Below, piece after piece: positions 21,684 through 37,461 of a DNA stretch of 44,264 bases. How positions within the stretch are numbered: position 1 is the stretch's first letter; each line of letters starts with the position of its first letter. Origin of the DNA: Thermobrachium celere DSM 8682 (GTDB lineage Bacteria; Bacillota; Clostridia; Clostridiales; Caloramatoraceae). The notes under the pieces are model-generated. The model saw nothing but the letters and a program-made list of their open reading frames with translations, made no database searches and was not told the origin of the DNA. The stretch is from NCBI RefSeq assembly GCF_000430995.1, contig NZ_HF952022.1, forward strand, positions 1 to 44,264. Reading direction: 5' to 3'. Made by a program: the position numbers and the translations under genes.

Positions 21684-21748
21684 CTTTAGCCCTCCTTTGA
21701 GTTTATTATAACACATTAGATTATAATTATCTAGAAGAGGTGGAATAT

Positions 21749-22042
21749 ATGAACAATTTAACTAATGAAATTTTTCAAGAAACTGCGGAAATATTAAAGG
21801 TCATAGGACATCCTATTAGATTATGCATATTAAAAGGGCTTTATGTTGAAGGAGAAAAAAATGTTACTACAATGCAGGAATGTTTAAATATTCCTCAATC
21901 AACGGTTTCACAACATTTAGGTATTTTAAAAAATAAAGGTATAATAAAGGGAAGAAGAAATGGACTTGAAATAAATTATTCTATATGCAATGAAAAGGTG
22001 ATAAAGATACTTGAAACACTTTTAAAAGAGGAATTGATATGA
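21749..22042 (+). CDS. ArsR-family winged-helix repressor
   Basis: 97-aa DNA-binding protein: helix LKVIGHPIRLCILKGLY, recognition region LNIPQSTVSQHLGILKNKGIIKGRRNGLEINYSI. The classic arsenic/cadmium site (ELCVCDL) is absent, but single Cys residues occur in the IRLCIL and MQECLN positions and one near the C-terminus (SICNE), so thiol or sulfide sensing is possible. Start ATG at 21749; the GTG at 21740 is within the Shine-Dalgarno GAGGTGG. It overlaps the sigma-54 activator by 4 bp (ATGA), so they form a two-gene operon. Confidence 0.9.
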   Translation: MNNLTNEIFQETAEILKVIGHPIRLCILKGLYVEGEKNVTTMQECLNIPQSTVSQHLGILKNKGIIKGRRNGLEINYSICNEKVIKILETLLKEELI

Positions 22043-23757
22043 AGGAGCTTAAAGATATAAAGGATTATGCTCAAAATATAGCAGAAATAATCAAGAGCGT
22101 TGTAGGTGTTGATGTTACTATTGTTGACTCAAATAATGTAAGAGTTGCAGCTACAGGAATGTACAAGGATTTAATTGGTAAGAAGATAGTTCAAAAGTCA
22201 GCCTTTAGACGAGCAATGGAATTAAAAAAGATATTAATCATTGATGAGCCAAGGATAGATGAGGTTTGTAGAGAATGCGAGAATAAGTTAAAATGCATAG
22301 AATATGCTGAAGTTTGCTCTCCAATTATTGTAGATGATAGGGTTGTTGGTGTAATAGGTTTAGTTGCCTTAGAAGAAGAACAAAAACAGCAATTAAATAA
22401 AAATAAAGAAAACCTTATTAAATTTTTAAATAAAATGAGCGATATGCTTAGTACTAAAATTTCAGAGCTTAATATTTGCGAAAAACAAAAACTTCTCATA
22501 AATCAAATTGAAACAATTGTTAATTCTATAGATGAAGGAATTATAGCTTTAGATTTAGAACAAAATATTTTATTTAAAAACAAAATTGTAGATGACAATT
22601 TTGATGAAGACGAGATAAAAAAGTTTATAGAAAAGATTTTAGATGAAAGTACTTATATCGATGTAATGCAGGGAAGAGAAAAACGTAACATGCAGTTTGG
22701 TATTGGCGAAAGAAATTTTTTAGTAACGCTAAAACCAATAATTTATAATAACAAAACACAAGGTATAATAATATCCCTTAAAAGTATGAAGGATATAAAT
22801 AAAATAATAAGAGATGTTACTTTTATAAATATAAATACGACTTTTGAAGGTATAATAGGTAGGTCTGAAAAATTTTTAAAGGTTATTGAAATAGCAAAGA
22901 AAACATCTAAGGCTGACTCTACAGTTTTAATACTTGGAGAAAGTGGTACAGGTAAAGAGCTTTTTGCAAGAGCTATACATAATGAAAGTAAAAGAAAGAA
23001 TAAACCTTTTATTGCAGTAAACTGTGCAGCAATACCTGAGTCCTTACTTGAAAGTGAACTGTTTGGATTTGAAGAAGGAGCCTTTACAGGAGCCAAAAAG
23101 GGAGGCAAAATAGGTAAGTTTGAATTAGCAAATGGAGGAACATTGTTTTTAGATGAGATAGGGGATATGCCTCTTCATCTTCAGGTAAAACTATTAAGGG
23201 TGCTTCAAGAAAAATGTATAGAAAGAATAGGAAGTAATAGGCAGGTAAGTGTAGATATAAGAATTATTGCAGCTACTCATAAAAACCTAGAGGATATGGT
23301 ATTAAAAGGTGAGTTTAGACAGGATCTATATTATAGATTGAATGTTATACCTATTAAAATCCCTCCATTAAGGGAAAGAAGAGATGATATAAAAATATTA
23401 ATGGATTATATATTAAATAAGTTCTGTATTAAATTTAATAAAAGAATATATGGATTTGATGAAGATGTTTATAGTGCTTTTTTAAAATATGAGTGGCCAG
23501 GTAATGTAAGGGAATTAGAAAATGTTATTGAATATCTAGTTAATATGTATAATGAATGTTTTATAACATATGATATGCTTCCTGAAAAATTAAAGGGAGA
23601 TAACAACGCTATAAATACATTTAATTTAAAATATCATGAAAAGCTTTTAATAAAGGAAGCATTAAAGAAATTTAATTCAAGAGATGAAGCTGCAAAGGCA
23701 TTAGGAATAGGTAGGGCAACTTTGTTTAGAAAAATAAAGGAATATGATTTAGATTAA
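22039..23757 (+). CDS. cdsR: Sigma-54-dependent activator, CdsR-like
   Basis: 572-aa enhancer-binding protein. N-terminal sensor (1-120) with a Cys cluster C77-x2-C80-x5-C86-x6-C93 just before SPIIVDDRVVGVIGLVA, a GAF/PAS-like edge; a second PAS-like region (about 150-255); AAA+ domain with GESGTGKE (about 300-307), the sigma-54-contacting GAFTGA (about 347-352), Walker B TLFLDEIGD and an arginine-rich IPPLRERRDD; then a Fis-type HTH DEAAKALGIGRATLFRKI. The next gene is a cysteine desulfidase with a sigma-54 promoter, the arrangement of CdsR-CdsB in Clostridioides difficile. The Cys cluster could bind Fe-S or another metal, which is inference. The stop codon lies inside palindrome 1. Confidence 0.9.
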   Translation: MKELKDIKDYAQNIAEIIKSVVGVDVTIVDSNNVRVAATGMYKDLIGKKIVQKSAFRRAMELKKILIIDEPRIDEVCRECENKLKCIEYAEVCSPIIVDDRVVGVIGLVALEEEQKQQLNKNKENLIKFLNKMSDMLSTKISELNICEKQKLLINQIETIVNSIDEGIIALDLEQNILFKNKIVDDNFDEDEIKKFIEKILDESTYIDVMQGREKRNMQFGIGERNFLVTLKPIIYNNKTQGIIISLKSMKDINKIIRDVTFININTTFEGIIGRSEKFLKVIEIAKKTSKADSTVLILGESGTGKELFARAIHNESKRKNKPFIAVNCAAIPESLLESELFGFEEGAFTGAKKGGKIGKFELANGGTLFLDEIGDMPLHLQVKLLRVLQEKCIERIGSNRQVSVDIRIIAATHKNLEDMVLKGEFRQDLYYRLNVIPIKIPPLRERRDDIKILMDYILNKFCIKFNKRIYGFDEDVYSAFLKYEWPGNVRELENVIEYLVNMYNECFITYDMLPEKLKGDNNAINTFNLKYHEKLLIKEALKKFNSRDEAAKALGIGRATLFRKIKEYDLD

Positions 23758-23795
23758 TCTCAAATTGATACTTTAAGTATCAATTTGAGATTAAT
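23753..23795. promoter_or_regulatory. Palindrome 1 upstream of the desulfidase gene
   Basis: 43-bp perfect palindrome: two 21-nt arms around one central T at 23774. It begins in the last codons of the activator gene and contains TTGATAC (23765-23771) and GTATCAA (23777-23783). No T run follows, so it is a poor terminator. Its centre is about 105 bp upstream of the -24 element, a usual distance for an enhancer-binding-protein site. Confidence 0.8.
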
Positions 23796-23822
23796 GTTTG
23801 ATAAAGATAAATATTATATGAT

Positions 23823-23861
23823 AGACCTTTTAAAGTATCAATTTGATACTTTAAAAGGTCT
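23823..23861. promoter_or_regulatory. Palindrome 2 upstream of the desulfidase gene
   Basis: 39-bp perfect palindrome with 19-nt arms and a 1-nt centre at 23842. It contains GTATCAA T TTGATAC (23835-23849). It shares the 14-mer AAGTATCAATTTGA with palindrome 1 (23775-23788 and 23833-23846). It is followed by TTTTTATTTT, so it may also end the activator transcript. Confidence 0.8.
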
Positions 23862-23878
23862 TTTTATTTTAAAAAACT

Positions 23879-23894
23879 TGGCATATCTTTTGCT
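23879..23894 (+). promoter_or_regulatory. Sigma-54 (-24/-12) promoter for cysteine desulfidase
   Basis: TGGCAT-N5-TTGCT (23879-23884 and 23890-23894), with correct GG-to-GC spacing against consensus TGGCAC-N5-TTGCA. It lies 45 bp upstream of the desulfidase ATG and directly downstream of the activator gene. Confidence 0.85.
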
Positions 23895-23939: not shown

Positions 23940-25232
23940 ATGAAAGAGATGATAAAGGATATATTAAAACAAGAGGTTGTATTGGCGTTAGGATGCACTG
24001 AACCTGTAGCAGTTGCTTTAGCATCAGCTTCAGCTTATAGTTTAATAAATGGTGAGATAAATAAAATAAATGTTATTGTAAGTTCAAACATATTTAAAAA
24101 TGCTTTTGCTGTTGGAATTCCAGGTACTAAAAATGTGGGGCTTCATATTGCAGCAGCCCTTGGAGCAGTTGGAGGAGACTCTAGATTAAAACTTCAAGTG
24201 CTTAAGAATATAAATTCTAATCATGAAAAATTAGCTAAAAAGATAGTAGAAGAAAATAGGGTTAATATTGGGGTTGATGATTCAAAGGCTCGCTTTTATA
24301 TAAGGGTTGAGGTTGAAACAAGTAAAGGATTAGGTGTATGTGAGATTAGAGATAAGCATTCAAATATTGTTTATCTTGAAGCAAATGGTAGAGTTATATT
24401 TGAAAATAGAGAAGTTGCAGTTGACAATGCTAATAAATCATATGATATAAGAAAGTATAAGTTAATGGATTTTATAAATGAAATATTAAACATGGAATAT
24501 GATGACTTAGAATTTCTATTGGAGGGAGCAGAGGTAAACTTTAAAATAGCTCAAGAAGGATTAAATAATAATTATGGTATGGAAATAGGAAAAAGATATA
24601 AAAGGATGATAGAAGAGGGAGTTCTCTCTGATGATATTCAAAATAATATAATAATGATGACAGCAGCAGCATCGGATGCAAGAATGGCTGGATGTTTTAT
24701 GCCTGTTATGAGTAGTGCAGGTTCGGGTAATCATGGAATAACAGCTATAATCCCTGTAGCAGTTTGTGCAAAATATTTAAATAAAGATAATAAAGATTTG
24801 GTAAAGGCTTTAGCAATATCACATATAACAACAATTTATATAAAACAATTCACAGGAAGACTATCTAGTGTTTGTGGATGTGGAGTAGCTGCAGGAGTTG
24901 GTGCTGCATGTGGTATTTGTTACTTGTTAGGGGGAAAAGATAAAGAGTTTGAAAATACGATAAAGAATATGGTTGGAGATATTACTGGAATGGTATGTGA
25001 TGGAGCAAAACCAGGATGTGCTATAAAATTATCAACAGCAGCATCTGCTGCCTATAAGGCTGCTATACTTGCTGTACGTGGAGTAAGTGTTCCATGTGGA
25101 AATGGTATAGTTGGATGTGACATTGAAGCTACAATAAAGAATTTAGGTGTTTTTTCACGAGAGGGAATGAAGAATGCCGATAAAACAATTATAGATATAA
25201 TGTTAAAGAGAGATATTGAATATATGTGTTAG
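23940..25232 (+). CDS. cdsB: L-cysteine desulfidase (UPF0597 / serine dehydratase alpha-like)
   Basis: 430-aa iron-sulfur enzyme of the CyuA/YhaM/CdsB family that converts L-cysteine to pyruvate, ammonia and sulfide. Family signatures: ALGCTEPVAVALASA (C19), GIPGTKN, SVCGCGVAAGVGAACGICY (near 310-330) and MVCDGAKPGCAIKLSTAAS (near 350-370), whose cysteines hold the cluster. True start is the ATG at 23940 with GGAGG 9 nt before it; an in-frame ATG at 23925 overlaps that site. It is a single gene between the sigma-54 promoter and a terminator, so expression should depend on the neighbouring activator. Confidence 0.93.
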   Translation: MKEMIKDILKQEVVLALGCTEPVAVALASASAYSLINGEINKINVIVSSNIFKNAFAVGIPGTKNVGLHIAAALGAVGGDSRLKLQVLKNINSNHEKLAKKIVEENRVNIGVDDSKARFYIRVEVETSKGLGVCEIRDKHSNIVYLEANGRVIFENREVAVDNANKSYDIRKYKLMDFINEILNMEYDDLEFLLEGAEVNFKIAQEGLNNNYGMEIGKRYKRMIEEGVLSDDIQNNIIMMTAAASDARMAGCFMPVMSSAGSGNHGITAIIPVAVCAKYLNKDNKDLVKALAISHITTIYIKQFTGRLSSVCGCGVAAGVGAACGICYLLGGKDKEFENTIKNMVGDITGMVCDGAKPGCAIKLSTAASAAYKAAILAVRGVSVPCGNGIVGCDIEATIKNLGVFSREGMKNADKTIIDIMLKRDIEYMC

Positions 25233-26729: not shown

Positions 26730-27323
26730 ATGGATAGACTTAAAGTTGCAGTTGGAGATAATGATGAAGAGGTATTAAAGTCAATTCAGATAATGCTTGT
26801 ACAAATGGGGTGTAATGTTGTTGCACTTGAAACGTCAGGGTCAGCCCTTTTAAGAAAGATTAGAAGTCTAAACCCAGATGTATCAATTATTGATGTAAAC
26901 TTAAGAGGTATGTCGGCCTTTGAAATATCAGATGTAGTTGAAAAACAGGGTATTTGCCCTTGTATTATTACAATTAAAGGAAGTATAGATGAGTACTATG
27001 ATAAGCTTAAAGACAAGTTAGTTTTTGCATATTTACAAAAACCTATAAATGCATTTAATTTAAGATATGCTATAGAATCAGCATATTTTAACTATAAAAA
27101 TTTAATAAACATGGATAAAAAACTAAAAGAGAGAAAGATAATAGATAAGGCGAAGGGATTAATAATGAAAAAATACAATCTTACAGAAGAGAGGGCTTAT
27201 GAATATATTAGAAAAAAGAGTATGGATAAAGGGGTAAGTATGGCTAGAATTGCCCAGGCAATAATTGATATAATAGAGGATAAGGACAAAAAAGTTGGAG
27301 GGGATGTAGATGAAAAAGATTGA
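26730..27323 (+). CDS. Response regulator with ANTAR RNA-binding domain
   Basis: 197-aa regulator. N-terminal receiver-like domain with D10, D12, phosphoacceptor D55 (SIIDVNLRG) and K104 (LQKPI), then an ANTAR domain (about 125-185: KIIDKAKGLIMKKYNLTEERAYEYIRKKSMDKGVSMARIAQAII) that binds two-hexaloop RNA hairpins to prevent termination. Downstream of glnA it is likely a NitR/GlnR-type antiterminator for nitrogen genes. Its 3' end overlaps yedF by 14 bp. No partner kinase gene is in the window. I could not find a clear dual-hexaloop leader before glnA. Confidence 0.92.
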   Translation: MDRLKVAVGDNDEEVLKSIQIMLVQMGCNVVALETSGSALLRKIRSLNPDVSIIDVNLRGMSAFEISDVVEKQGICPCIITIKGSIDEYYDKLKDKLVFAYLQKPINAFNLRYAIESAYFNYKNLINMDKKLKERKIIDKAKGLIMKKYNLTEERAYEYIRKKSMDKGVSMARIAQAIIDIIEDKDKKVGGDVDEKD

Positions 27324-27888
27324 TTGTAGGGGGCTTGCTTGTCCAAAACCAGTAATCATGACTAAGAAGGAATTAGATAACATAAATTCTGGAGAAATTG
27401 AAGTTTTAGTAGATAATGAAGGCGCAAGAGAAAATCTATCAAAACTTGCTCAAAATTATGGATATGAATATAGAGTTTTAGAGGATGTAGAAGGAATACA
27501 TGTTATTATAAAGAAGTTAGAAAAATGTAATACAACTGATTTAAAGGATAATGGTAACATTGTTATAGTAATTACAAGTGATACTTTAGGACATGGAGAT
27601 GATGTTTTAGGTAGAACTTTAATGAAGAGCTATGTATATTCACTAACAGAGGTTGAAGAAAAGCCAAAAACAATAATATTTATAAATGCAGGTGTAAAAC
27701 TAACAACAGAAGGTTCAGATGTATTAGAAAGCTTAAAGGTTTTAGAACAACATGGAGTAGAAATACTATCATGTGGAACATGTTTGAATTTTTATAATCT
27801 ATCTGATAAATTAAAAGTAGGTACAGTATCAAATATGTATACAATTGTTGAAAAAATGCATAGAGCTACAAATACTATAAAAATATGA
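27310..27888 (+). CDS. yedF: Selenium-metabolism protein YedF (TusA-DsrE fusion)
   Basis: 192 aa. N-terminal TusA-like sulfur-carrier domain with the active Cys in DCRGLACPKPVI (C11), then a DsrE-like domain with IVITSDTLGHGDDVLGRTLM and ILSCGTCLNFYNL. YedF proteins co-occur with selenium traits and are thought to carry S or Se between proteins. The ATG at 27310 with GGAGGGG upstream is inside the ANTAR gene, so translation is coupled to it. Next is a DUF3343 gene, its usual partner. Confidence 0.93.
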   Translation: MKKIDCRGLACPKPVIMTKKELDNINSGEIEVLVDNEGARENLSKLAQNYGYEYRVLEDVEGIHVIIKKLEKCNTTDLKDNGNIVIVITSDTLGHGDDVLGRTLMKSYVYSLTEVEEKPKTIIFINAGVKLTTEGSDVLESLKVLEQHGVEILSCGTCLNFYNLSDKLKVGTVSNMYTIVEKMHRATNTIKI

Positions 27889-30352: not shown

Positions 30353-30380
30353 AAAGTGCCTAAATTTTAGGCACTTTTTT
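30353..30380 (+). terminator. Terminator after rpsR
   Basis: AAAGTGCCTAA / TTAGGCACTTT (30353-30363 with 30367-30377), loop ATT, then TTT and T-rich sequence. Confidence 0.9.
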
Positions 30381-36090: not shown

Positions 36091-37425
36091 ATGGAAGCAC
36101 AATTAAGAGTTCCTCCACATAATTTAGAAGCTGAACAGTCAGTTTTAGGTGCAATGATAATTGAAAATGATATTATATATGAAGTTTCAGAGATATTAAC
36201 AGGTGATGAGTTTTATAAAGAAGGACATAAACTTCTTTATAAAACAATAATGGAGATACACAATGATGGAAAACCTGTTGATATGATTACATTAATAGAT
36301 ACATTAAAAGGAAGAGATTTACTTGAGGCGGTTGGAGGAATTTCTTATATAAGTGACCTTATCTCCTCAGTACCCATTGTGTCTAATGCCAAATATTATG
36401 CTAAAATTGTGGAAGAAAAATATTTGTTGAGAAGTTTAATATCTGCTTCTCATAGAATAATGGATAGATGTTATAACGAACAGGATGATGTTGAAGAAGT
36501 TTTAGGAGAGGCAGAAAAAAGTATATTTGACATATCCCAAAAGAAGAAAAATGAGGATTTTGAGTCCATTAAACCTATATTAGAAAGAAGTTTTGAACAA
36601 ATAGAGCATGTATATAAATTTAAAGGTGATACAACAGGTATACCATCTGGTTTTATAGATTTAGATAGAAAAACTTCAGGATTTCAAAAGGGAGATTTTA
36701 TTCTTGTAGCAGCTAGACCTTCAATGGGTAAGACAGCCTTTGTTTTAAATATAGCCCTTCATGCAGCATTAAGGGCAGGTAAGAGTGTTGCAATATTTAG
36801 CCTTGAAATGTCAAAGGAACAACTTGTATATAGAATGCTCTGTTCAGAGGCTAATGTTGATATGTTAAAGCTTAGGACAGGAGATTTAGACGATGAGGAT
36901 TGGTTAAGACTTGCAAGAGCAGCTAGTCCAATGTCTAAGGCATCTATTTTTATTGATGATACACCAGGTATATCTATAATGGAGATGCGTTCAAAATGCA
37001 GAAGATTAAAGATGGAAAAGGGACTTGATTTAATAATGGTAGACTATCTTCAGCTTATGAGTGGGGGTAAAAAATCTGAAAGTAGACAACAAGAAGTATC
37101 TGAAATATCAAGATCCCTTAAGGCTCTTGCAAAGGAGATGAATGCTCCTGTGATTGCACTATCACAGCTTTCACGTGCTCCAGAGGCTAGAGCAGATCAT
37201 AGACCAATCCTTTCAGACCTTAGAGAATCAGGTTCTATAGAACAGGACGCTGACCTTGTTATGTTTTTATATAGAGATGAATACTATAACAAGGAATCAG
37301 AGAAGAAAAATATAGCTGAAGTAATCATAGCAAAGCAGAGAAATGGTCCAACAGGAACTGTAGAACTTGCTTGGCTTGGACAATATACTAAGTTTGGAAA
37401 TCTTGATAGATATCATAATGCATGA
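36091..37425 (+). CDS. dnaB: Replicative DNA helicase DnaB (DnaC in Bacillus)
   Basis: 444-aa hexameric helicase. N-terminal domain RVPPHNLEAEQSVLGAMII, linker, RecA-like domain with ARPSMGKTAFVLNIA (about 208-220), SLEMSKEQLVYRML, MVDYLQLM and DLRESGSIEQDADLVMFLYRDEYY. No intein is visible. ATG at 36091 with AGGAGGTG. It ends at a convergent terminator shared with nadE. Confidence 0.98.
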   Translation: MEAQLRVPPHNLEAEQSVLGAMIIENDIIYEVSEILTGDEFYKEGHKLLYKTIMEIHNDGKPVDMITLIDTLKGRDLLEAVGGISYISDLISSVPIVSNAKYYAKIVEEKYLLRSLISASHRIMDRCYNEQDDVEEVLGEAEKSIFDISQKKKNEDFESIKPILERSFEQIEHVYKFKGDTTGIPSGFIDLDRKTSGFQKGDFILVAARPSMGKTAFVLNIALHAALRAGKSVAIFSLEMSKEQLVYRMLCSEANVDMLKLRTGDLDDEDWLRLARAASPMSKASIFIDDTPGISIMEMRSKCRRLKMEKGLDLIMVDYLQLMSGGKKSESRQQEVSEISRSLKALAKEMNAPVIALSQLSRAPEARADHRPILSDLRESGSIEQDADLVMFLYRDEYYNKESEKKNIAEVIIAKQRNGPTGTVELAWLGQYTKFGNLDRYHNA

Positions 37426-37461
37426 AAGTCCTTTTGGCAGTTGCCAAAAGGACTTTTTTAT
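37425..37461. terminator. Bidirectional terminator between dnaB and nadE
   Basis: Near-perfect palindrome: arms 37425-37439 and 37442-37456 (core AAGTCCTTTTGGCA), tight loop, with T run on the plus strand and A run on the left. It serves both converging genes and overlaps the last base of dnaB and the 3' end of nadE. Confidence 0.9.

Follow-up and report, generated by a model that had tools for sequence, protein, structure and literature searches.

Candidate activator sites upstream of a cysteine desulfidase gene in Thermobrachium celere, one of them nested in a probable terminator

The two long palindromes between a sigma-54 activator gene and a cysteine desulfidase gene of Thermobrachium celere DSM 8682 very probably form an array of upstream activating sequences (UAS), through which a CdsR-like activator would act on the sigma-54 promoter of the desulfidase gene, the second palindrome being a third UAS extended into a terminator. 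Sequence comparison shows candidate sites, their pairing, their link with the promoter, a conserved core in the second palindrome and a compensated outer stem around that core.

The locus and its two palindromes

In the window (the whole stretch of 44,264 nucleotides that was analysed), the activator gene is followed by palindrome 1 (P1), palindrome 2 (P2), a -24/-12 promoter and the desulfidase gene, in that order. The activator gene (22039-23757, + strand; Pfam matches PF00158, E 3e-76, PF02954 and PF15714) encodes a SpoVT_C-type sensor region, an AAA+ domain with GAFTGA and a Fis-type HTH (PF02954). The top NCBIfam model for its product is PrdR, at 424 bits below the cut-off of 795, and no CdsR model matched; the name CdsR therefore follows from synteny, domains and common sites. 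An ArsR-family regulator gene (21740-22042, + strand; PF01022, and NF033788 above cut-off) overlaps the start of the activator gene, with which it likely forms one operon. CdsR is reportedly also used as the name of an ArsR-family regulator in Bacillus.

The cysteine desulfidase gene (CdsB/CyuA-like, SDH_alpha; 23940-25232, + strand; PF03313, E 1e-62; no NCBIfam match) was assigned its start at 23940 for the GGAGG at about 23928 ahead of it, and its product is 82-84% identical to those of the named relatives found, Caloramator proteoclasticus, Caloramator sp. mosi_1 and a Caloramator MAG. The promoter, TTGGCAT-N5-TTGCT (23878-23894, + strand; recognised by sequence pattern), had originally been predicted as a well-spaced -24/-12 element, and the genome bears this out, as the pattern TTGGCAY-N5-TTGC occurs at 14 sites in T. 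celere DSM 8682 against 0 for the backwards pattern. Judging from the position of the -12 box, sigma-54 transcription would start at about 23905. Further downstream (26730-27888) the window holds glnA and, behind it, genes for a response-regulator-like protein and a TusA/YedF-like sulfur carrier, all named by eye from their translations.

P1 (23753-23795, no strand assigned), which overlaps the activator stop codon (23755-23757), is 43 bp long with arms of 21 bp, and P2 (23823-23861, + strand) is 39 bp long with arms of 19 bp; each is 100% complementary around a centre of 1 nt, and 27 bp separate them, exactly as the original prediction had it. The common 14-mer core that it had pointed out, AAGTATCAATTTGA, is present in three copies in the whole 2.64-Mb genome, all of them in P1 and P2, and the predicted fourfold heptad was also recovered, with GTATCAA twice and TTGATAC twice across the two palindromes. 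The longest perfect arm in 100 second-order Markov versions of the window (loop of at most 3) was 14, so that arms of 21 and 19 are not explained by chance. Two more palindromes in the window, with arms of 12 (30353-30377) and 15 (37425-37456), each have a T-tail and resemble ordinary terminators, so this place is not alone in having a long perfect terminator stem.

The inverted UAS pair across the order

The repeated unit, as seen in 32 desulfidase loci with the activator directly upstream, is a 13-14 bp dyad, T(A/C)TCA-N3/4-TGA(G/T)A. By this comparison P1 is an inverted pair of candidate sites, UAS1 (TCTCA-AAT-TGATA; 23758-23770, + strand) and UAS2 (TATCA-ATT-TGAGA; 23778-23790, + strand), arranged head-to-head with their centres 20 bp apart. 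What had appeared as two giant palindromes reduces to a simple grammar, in which one 13-14 bp dyad is used three times and from which the sites of CdsR-like activators can be predicted throughout the order. The palindromes had been said to exceed an ordinary protein site; their lengths are real, but P1 is longer because it consists of two sites and P2 because it looks like an intrinsic terminator with a site in its stem, a terminator character that the original prediction missed.

The comparison covered 96 desulfidase loci of the order, made up of 13 family loci, 20 loci, 60 fetched stretches and L011, L012 and L014, with loci L004-L009, which overlap L034-L039, counted once; the 299-313-bit matches in G167, G174, G188, G165, G214, G189 and G162, nearly all weaker matches, matches beyond those listed and the fragment G002:C58 lie outside this set. 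A UAS pair with starts 18-21 bp apart is present in 31 of the 32 loci with the activator directly upstream when each site is required to match at least 8 of 10 positions, and a stricter cut of at least 9 of 10 per site retains it in 28 of the 32 and in none of 96 reversed sequences. In the 31 loci the start of the first UAS ranges from 19 bases ahead of the activator gene's end to 64 bases past it, and in 27 of them the second site is closer to the reverse complement of the first than to the first itself.

The pair is also linked to the promoter. Across all 96 loci it occurs in 34 of the 42 with a strict sigma-54 promoter, as opposed to 3 of the 54 without one, and the strict promoter itself is found in 29 of the 32 activator-adjacent loci versus 13 of the 64 lacking an adjacent activator. 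Nine of these 64 carry the UAS pair, and all nine have the strict promoter. The conservation of the unit, of the 18-21 bp pairing and of the promoter link across the order argues for the originally predicted operator pairs of a CdsR-like activator.

Symmetry in P1 goes beyond what each site requires. The gap bases, which are unconstrained by each site's own dyad, are complementary at 83 of 104 positions over 30 distinct pairs, against a mean of 62.7 and a maximum of 79 in 5000 permutations that ignore relatedness. Incompletely complementary gap pairs occur in L035, L040, L041, L066, L068, L069, L078 and L079, and L037 and L083 have one G-T each. Covariation extends beyond the sites by about 4 bp outward in the 17 N3 loci and about 2 bp in the 14 N4 loci, again by permutation that ignores relatedness, and each of the two sets adds a single marginal position farther out (out6, P about 0.045). 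Three causes could each have a share in the symmetry of the whole of P1: proteins arranged head-to-head, a hairpin in the RNA, and correction of palindromes by template switching.

P1 was also considered as a general terminator and this was dropped, since a directional test over the 31 loci, comparing downstream T-richness with upstream A-richness, found no difference (p 0.66). The symmetry of the UAS pair holds in many loci without a T-tail. A T-rich tail does follow the pair in most g24 loci (for example L068 and L080), L037, L039 and L014, which is only suggestive of P1 terminators there.

P2 as a probable terminator and the competing readings

P2 is probably the intrinsic terminator of the activator gene, holding at its centre a third candidate site recognised by dyad comparison, UAS3 (TATCA-ATT-TGATA; 23836-23848, + strand). 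It scores as an intrinsic terminator on the activator's strand, with 18 pairs, of which 5 are GC, and a T-tail directly after the stem (TTTTATTTT; 23862-23870, + strand, from sequence and terminator scoring), and stem plus tail folds at -22.8 kcal/mol. Three terminator-like sites lie between 23400 and 25500, against a shuffle mean of 0.4, and P2 is the sole one on the + strand. A perfect match to GTATCANNNTGATAC is found in the T. celere genome only inside P2, at UAS3; allowing one mismatch adds two further matches, which does not exceed the number for the backwards control.

In four Caloramator species (L034, L035, L036 and L038), UAS3 is identical as far as 8 bases from its centre, the middle bases apart, while the outer pairs d9-d18 all vary, with two to three pair types each, yet 40 of 40 cells are Watson-Crick. 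The common stem stops after d18, with one additional pair in L034 and four in L036, and a T-rich stretch comes next. Because the core is kept and the outer pairs are compensated, the core behaves like a protein site and the flanks like an RNA stem. Two constraints that can be told apart act on a single stretch of DNA, with the core kept for recognition by protein and the flanks for pairing in RNA. The Caloramator sp. mosi_1 locus (L008/L036, genome G004) has six stops in the activator frame in this assembly, resulting from either sequencing error or decay, and its sites, terminator and promoter are intact.

Stem and T-tail would suffice for a terminator, and P2 could be that only, its UAS-like centre coincidental or borrowed without enhancer function. 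This is improbable given that the centre is nearly invariant, its middle bases excepted, while the outer stem changes freely, and that UAS3 persists without the stem in two relatives, L037 and L039, in each of which 5 of the 10 outer pairs are broken (UAS3 itself has one base changed in L039). In these two loci a lenient scan places the T-tailed hairpin at P1 instead.

The distance from UAS2 to UAS3 is 58, 59, 58, 59, 90 and 69 bp in L034, L035, L036, L038, L037 and L039, corresponding to 5.5-5.6 helical turns in the first four, 8.6 in L037 and 6.6 in L039. These near whole-turn changes in length, which represent two events, give a weak hint that both sites may be read on DNA; in L039 the spacing between UAS3 and promoter departs from the whole-turn pattern. 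About 36 bp separate the centre of UAS3 from the -24 box, which is unusually close in view of the 100-250 bp reported for most UAS (PMC6615313).

The terminator scan of the 32 loci was lenient for AT-rich DNA, also calls P1 of the window, and was not used for frequency; it matched 26 of the 32 loci, 22 of them with a UAS inside. The terminator-like hairpins of L110 and L126 hold no UAS, and neither does the stronger hairpin of L011.

The ArsR-family regulator next door is quite unlikely to be the protein that uses the palindromes as its operators, in place of the sigma-54 activator. ArsR proteins bind inverted repeats, the ArsR-family gene overlaps the activator gene, and such a gene also lies upstream of the activator in L005, L008 and L009 (the L006 and L007 sequences end too near the activator to show an upstream gene). 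No ArsR match, however, is present in the upstream flanks of L011 (about 0.95 kb) and of L012, L014, L021 and L023 (1.5 kb), all of which have at least one site of the dyad type, and this persistence of the sites disfavours the regulator as their reader.

Slightly less credible still is the RNA switch or attenuator that was raised in the original prediction, in which the left arm of P1 would pair with P2 in RNA, block termination and attenuate read-through into the desulfidase gene. Such pairing could draw on the terminator-like character of P2 and on a perfect complementarity of 17 nt between 23760-23776 and 23830-23846, which is explained by the repetition of one palindromic site. It was rejected on fold energy, the cross-paired fold reaching -24.3 kcal/mol against -48.5 kcal/mol for the two local hairpins, and on position, as the inferred sigma-54 start is downstream of both palindromes, which leaves them outside the regulated transcript; moreover, the palindromes match no Rfam family at gathering scores, and L037 and L039 have equivalent sites without the P2 stem. 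A dispersed REP/MITE-like repeat inserted here by chance, which the long perfect palindromes with their common core might recall, is contradicted by the absence of the 14-mer core and of perfect dyad matches elsewhere in the genome and by the position of the sites beside the same gene pair across the order, and was rejected as very nearly inconceivable.

For the preferred reading, a UAS array of the CdsR-like activator, we infer binding by the activator, termination, cysteine as the inducer and insulation as the purpose of the arrangement, as follows. Activator dimers would bind UAS1 and UAS2, about two helical turns apart and turned to much the same side of the helix, and these side-by-side dimers would start the assembly of a hexamer, with UAS3 bound nearer the promoter. 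In the presence of the inducer, which by analogy would be cysteine, the hexamer would reach the waiting sigma-54 polymerase by looping and cause the desulfidase promoter to open. P2 would act twice, as duplex DNA recognised by the activator and as an RNA hairpin that stops transcription of the activator gene, and this terminator would keep that transcription out of the desulfidase gene, leaving the latter silent until sigma-54 activation. A site that is already palindromic would be an economical source of a terminator stem.

Known systems and other activators

In Clostridioides difficile, expression of cdsB requires CdsR and SigL and is induced by cysteine, and the required cdsB segment contains inverted repeats at -179/-190 and -200/-211, 21 bp apart (PMC5767170); CdsR1/2 is likewise listed as a group of predicted UAS motifs (PMC6615313). 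The C. difficile and T. celere systems share an activator gene directly upstream of the desulfidase gene, a sigma-54 promoter and paired repeats about 20 bp apart. They differ in that the C. difficile pair lies farther from the start (-179 to -211) and in that the available part of its description does not mention a third UAS in a terminator.

Like intrinsic terminators, P2 lies where the activator gene ends and has a stem with GC pairs near its base and a T-tail behind it; unlike them, it has a conserved recognition dyad with two nearby copies at the centre of its stem. Terminators related to DNA-uptake sequences, which Kingsford et al. in 2007 are said to have described, similarly use a short protein-recognised DNA motif in the stem; there the motif serves DNA uptake, whereas that of P2 would act as an enhancer for the neighbouring sigma-54 promoter. 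The activator, its target and the paired site are of a known kind, and the candidate UAS inside the activator gene's probable terminator is new; the literature searches made found no description of a UAS inside an activator's own terminator.

Other activators were compared using a recurrence test, which asked whether the centre of a hairpin recurs in its own activator-to-promoter gap better than in the gaps of other activators. From T. celere and five relatives, 94 of 97 sigma-54 sites were analysed (three in G001 and G004 being left out, and L145 being placed in the CdsR group), and the gap set comprised 38 gaps, 28 of them with a T-tailed hairpin. Recurrence reached p <0.01, near the minimum of the test and uncorrected over the 28 hairpins, in 4 of the 16 activator groups with a hairpin. 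The CdsR-like group gave p 0.006 in three species and 0.15 in L206, which has its hairpin at P1. L138 gave 0.006 (its relatives 0.034 and 0.062), L140, with a weak T-tail, and L143 each gave 0.005, and L142 was marginal at 0.07. The remaining groups showed no recurrence in this test, with a lowest p of 0.097, and L159, L135 and L219 are examples of terminators without it.

In the group of L138, L160, L177 and L226, one of the TGCAAA..TTTGCA sites is nested in the activator's terminator and the adjoining stem is compensated; across the four sequences the inner TGCAAA..TTTGCA is kept, and four of the six adjoining pairs vary with 24 of 24 cells paired. In L140, L142 and L143, a terminator-like stem holds a dyad, of the TGTCC, TTCCG and TGTCA types, that recurs in the gap.

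These comparisons suggest the same nesting in three other activators of the T. celere genome. That a terminator-embedded UAS is a general part in these clostridia, where the bound activator would also be a roadblock strengthening termination, is doubtful; were it so, read-through from the activator gene and activation of the target would be coupled through one DNA element. If the fusion of terminator and enhancer proved general, enhancers would escape motif scans in which terminators are masked, deleting a terminator in clostridia could leave the following gene without activation, and the possible link between activator binding and termination would become directly testable.

The HTH of the activator contains the segment ATLFRK, and ATL(Y/F)RK is present in 29 of the 32 orthologues (L064 and L128 deviate, and L125 is cut off) and in L132, another activator encoded in the T. 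celere genome, whose palindrome has sites of the same TTATCA type. At this segment most activators that go with other motifs are different; since NTLYRK in L136 and ASLYRK in L159 come close to it, the link between HTH and site is supporting and not decisive.

L132 (G000:C26:2969-4804 region) is CdsR-like, with 45% identity, and lies ahead of a threonine-synthase-like gene named by eye. Its recurrence p was 0.23, both of its sites being inside the hairpin and so invisible to the test. Its gap contains a perfect 41-bp palindrome that consists of two TTATCA-type sites and is followed by TTTTTTG, and another TTATCA-type site lies within the last codons of the activator gene.
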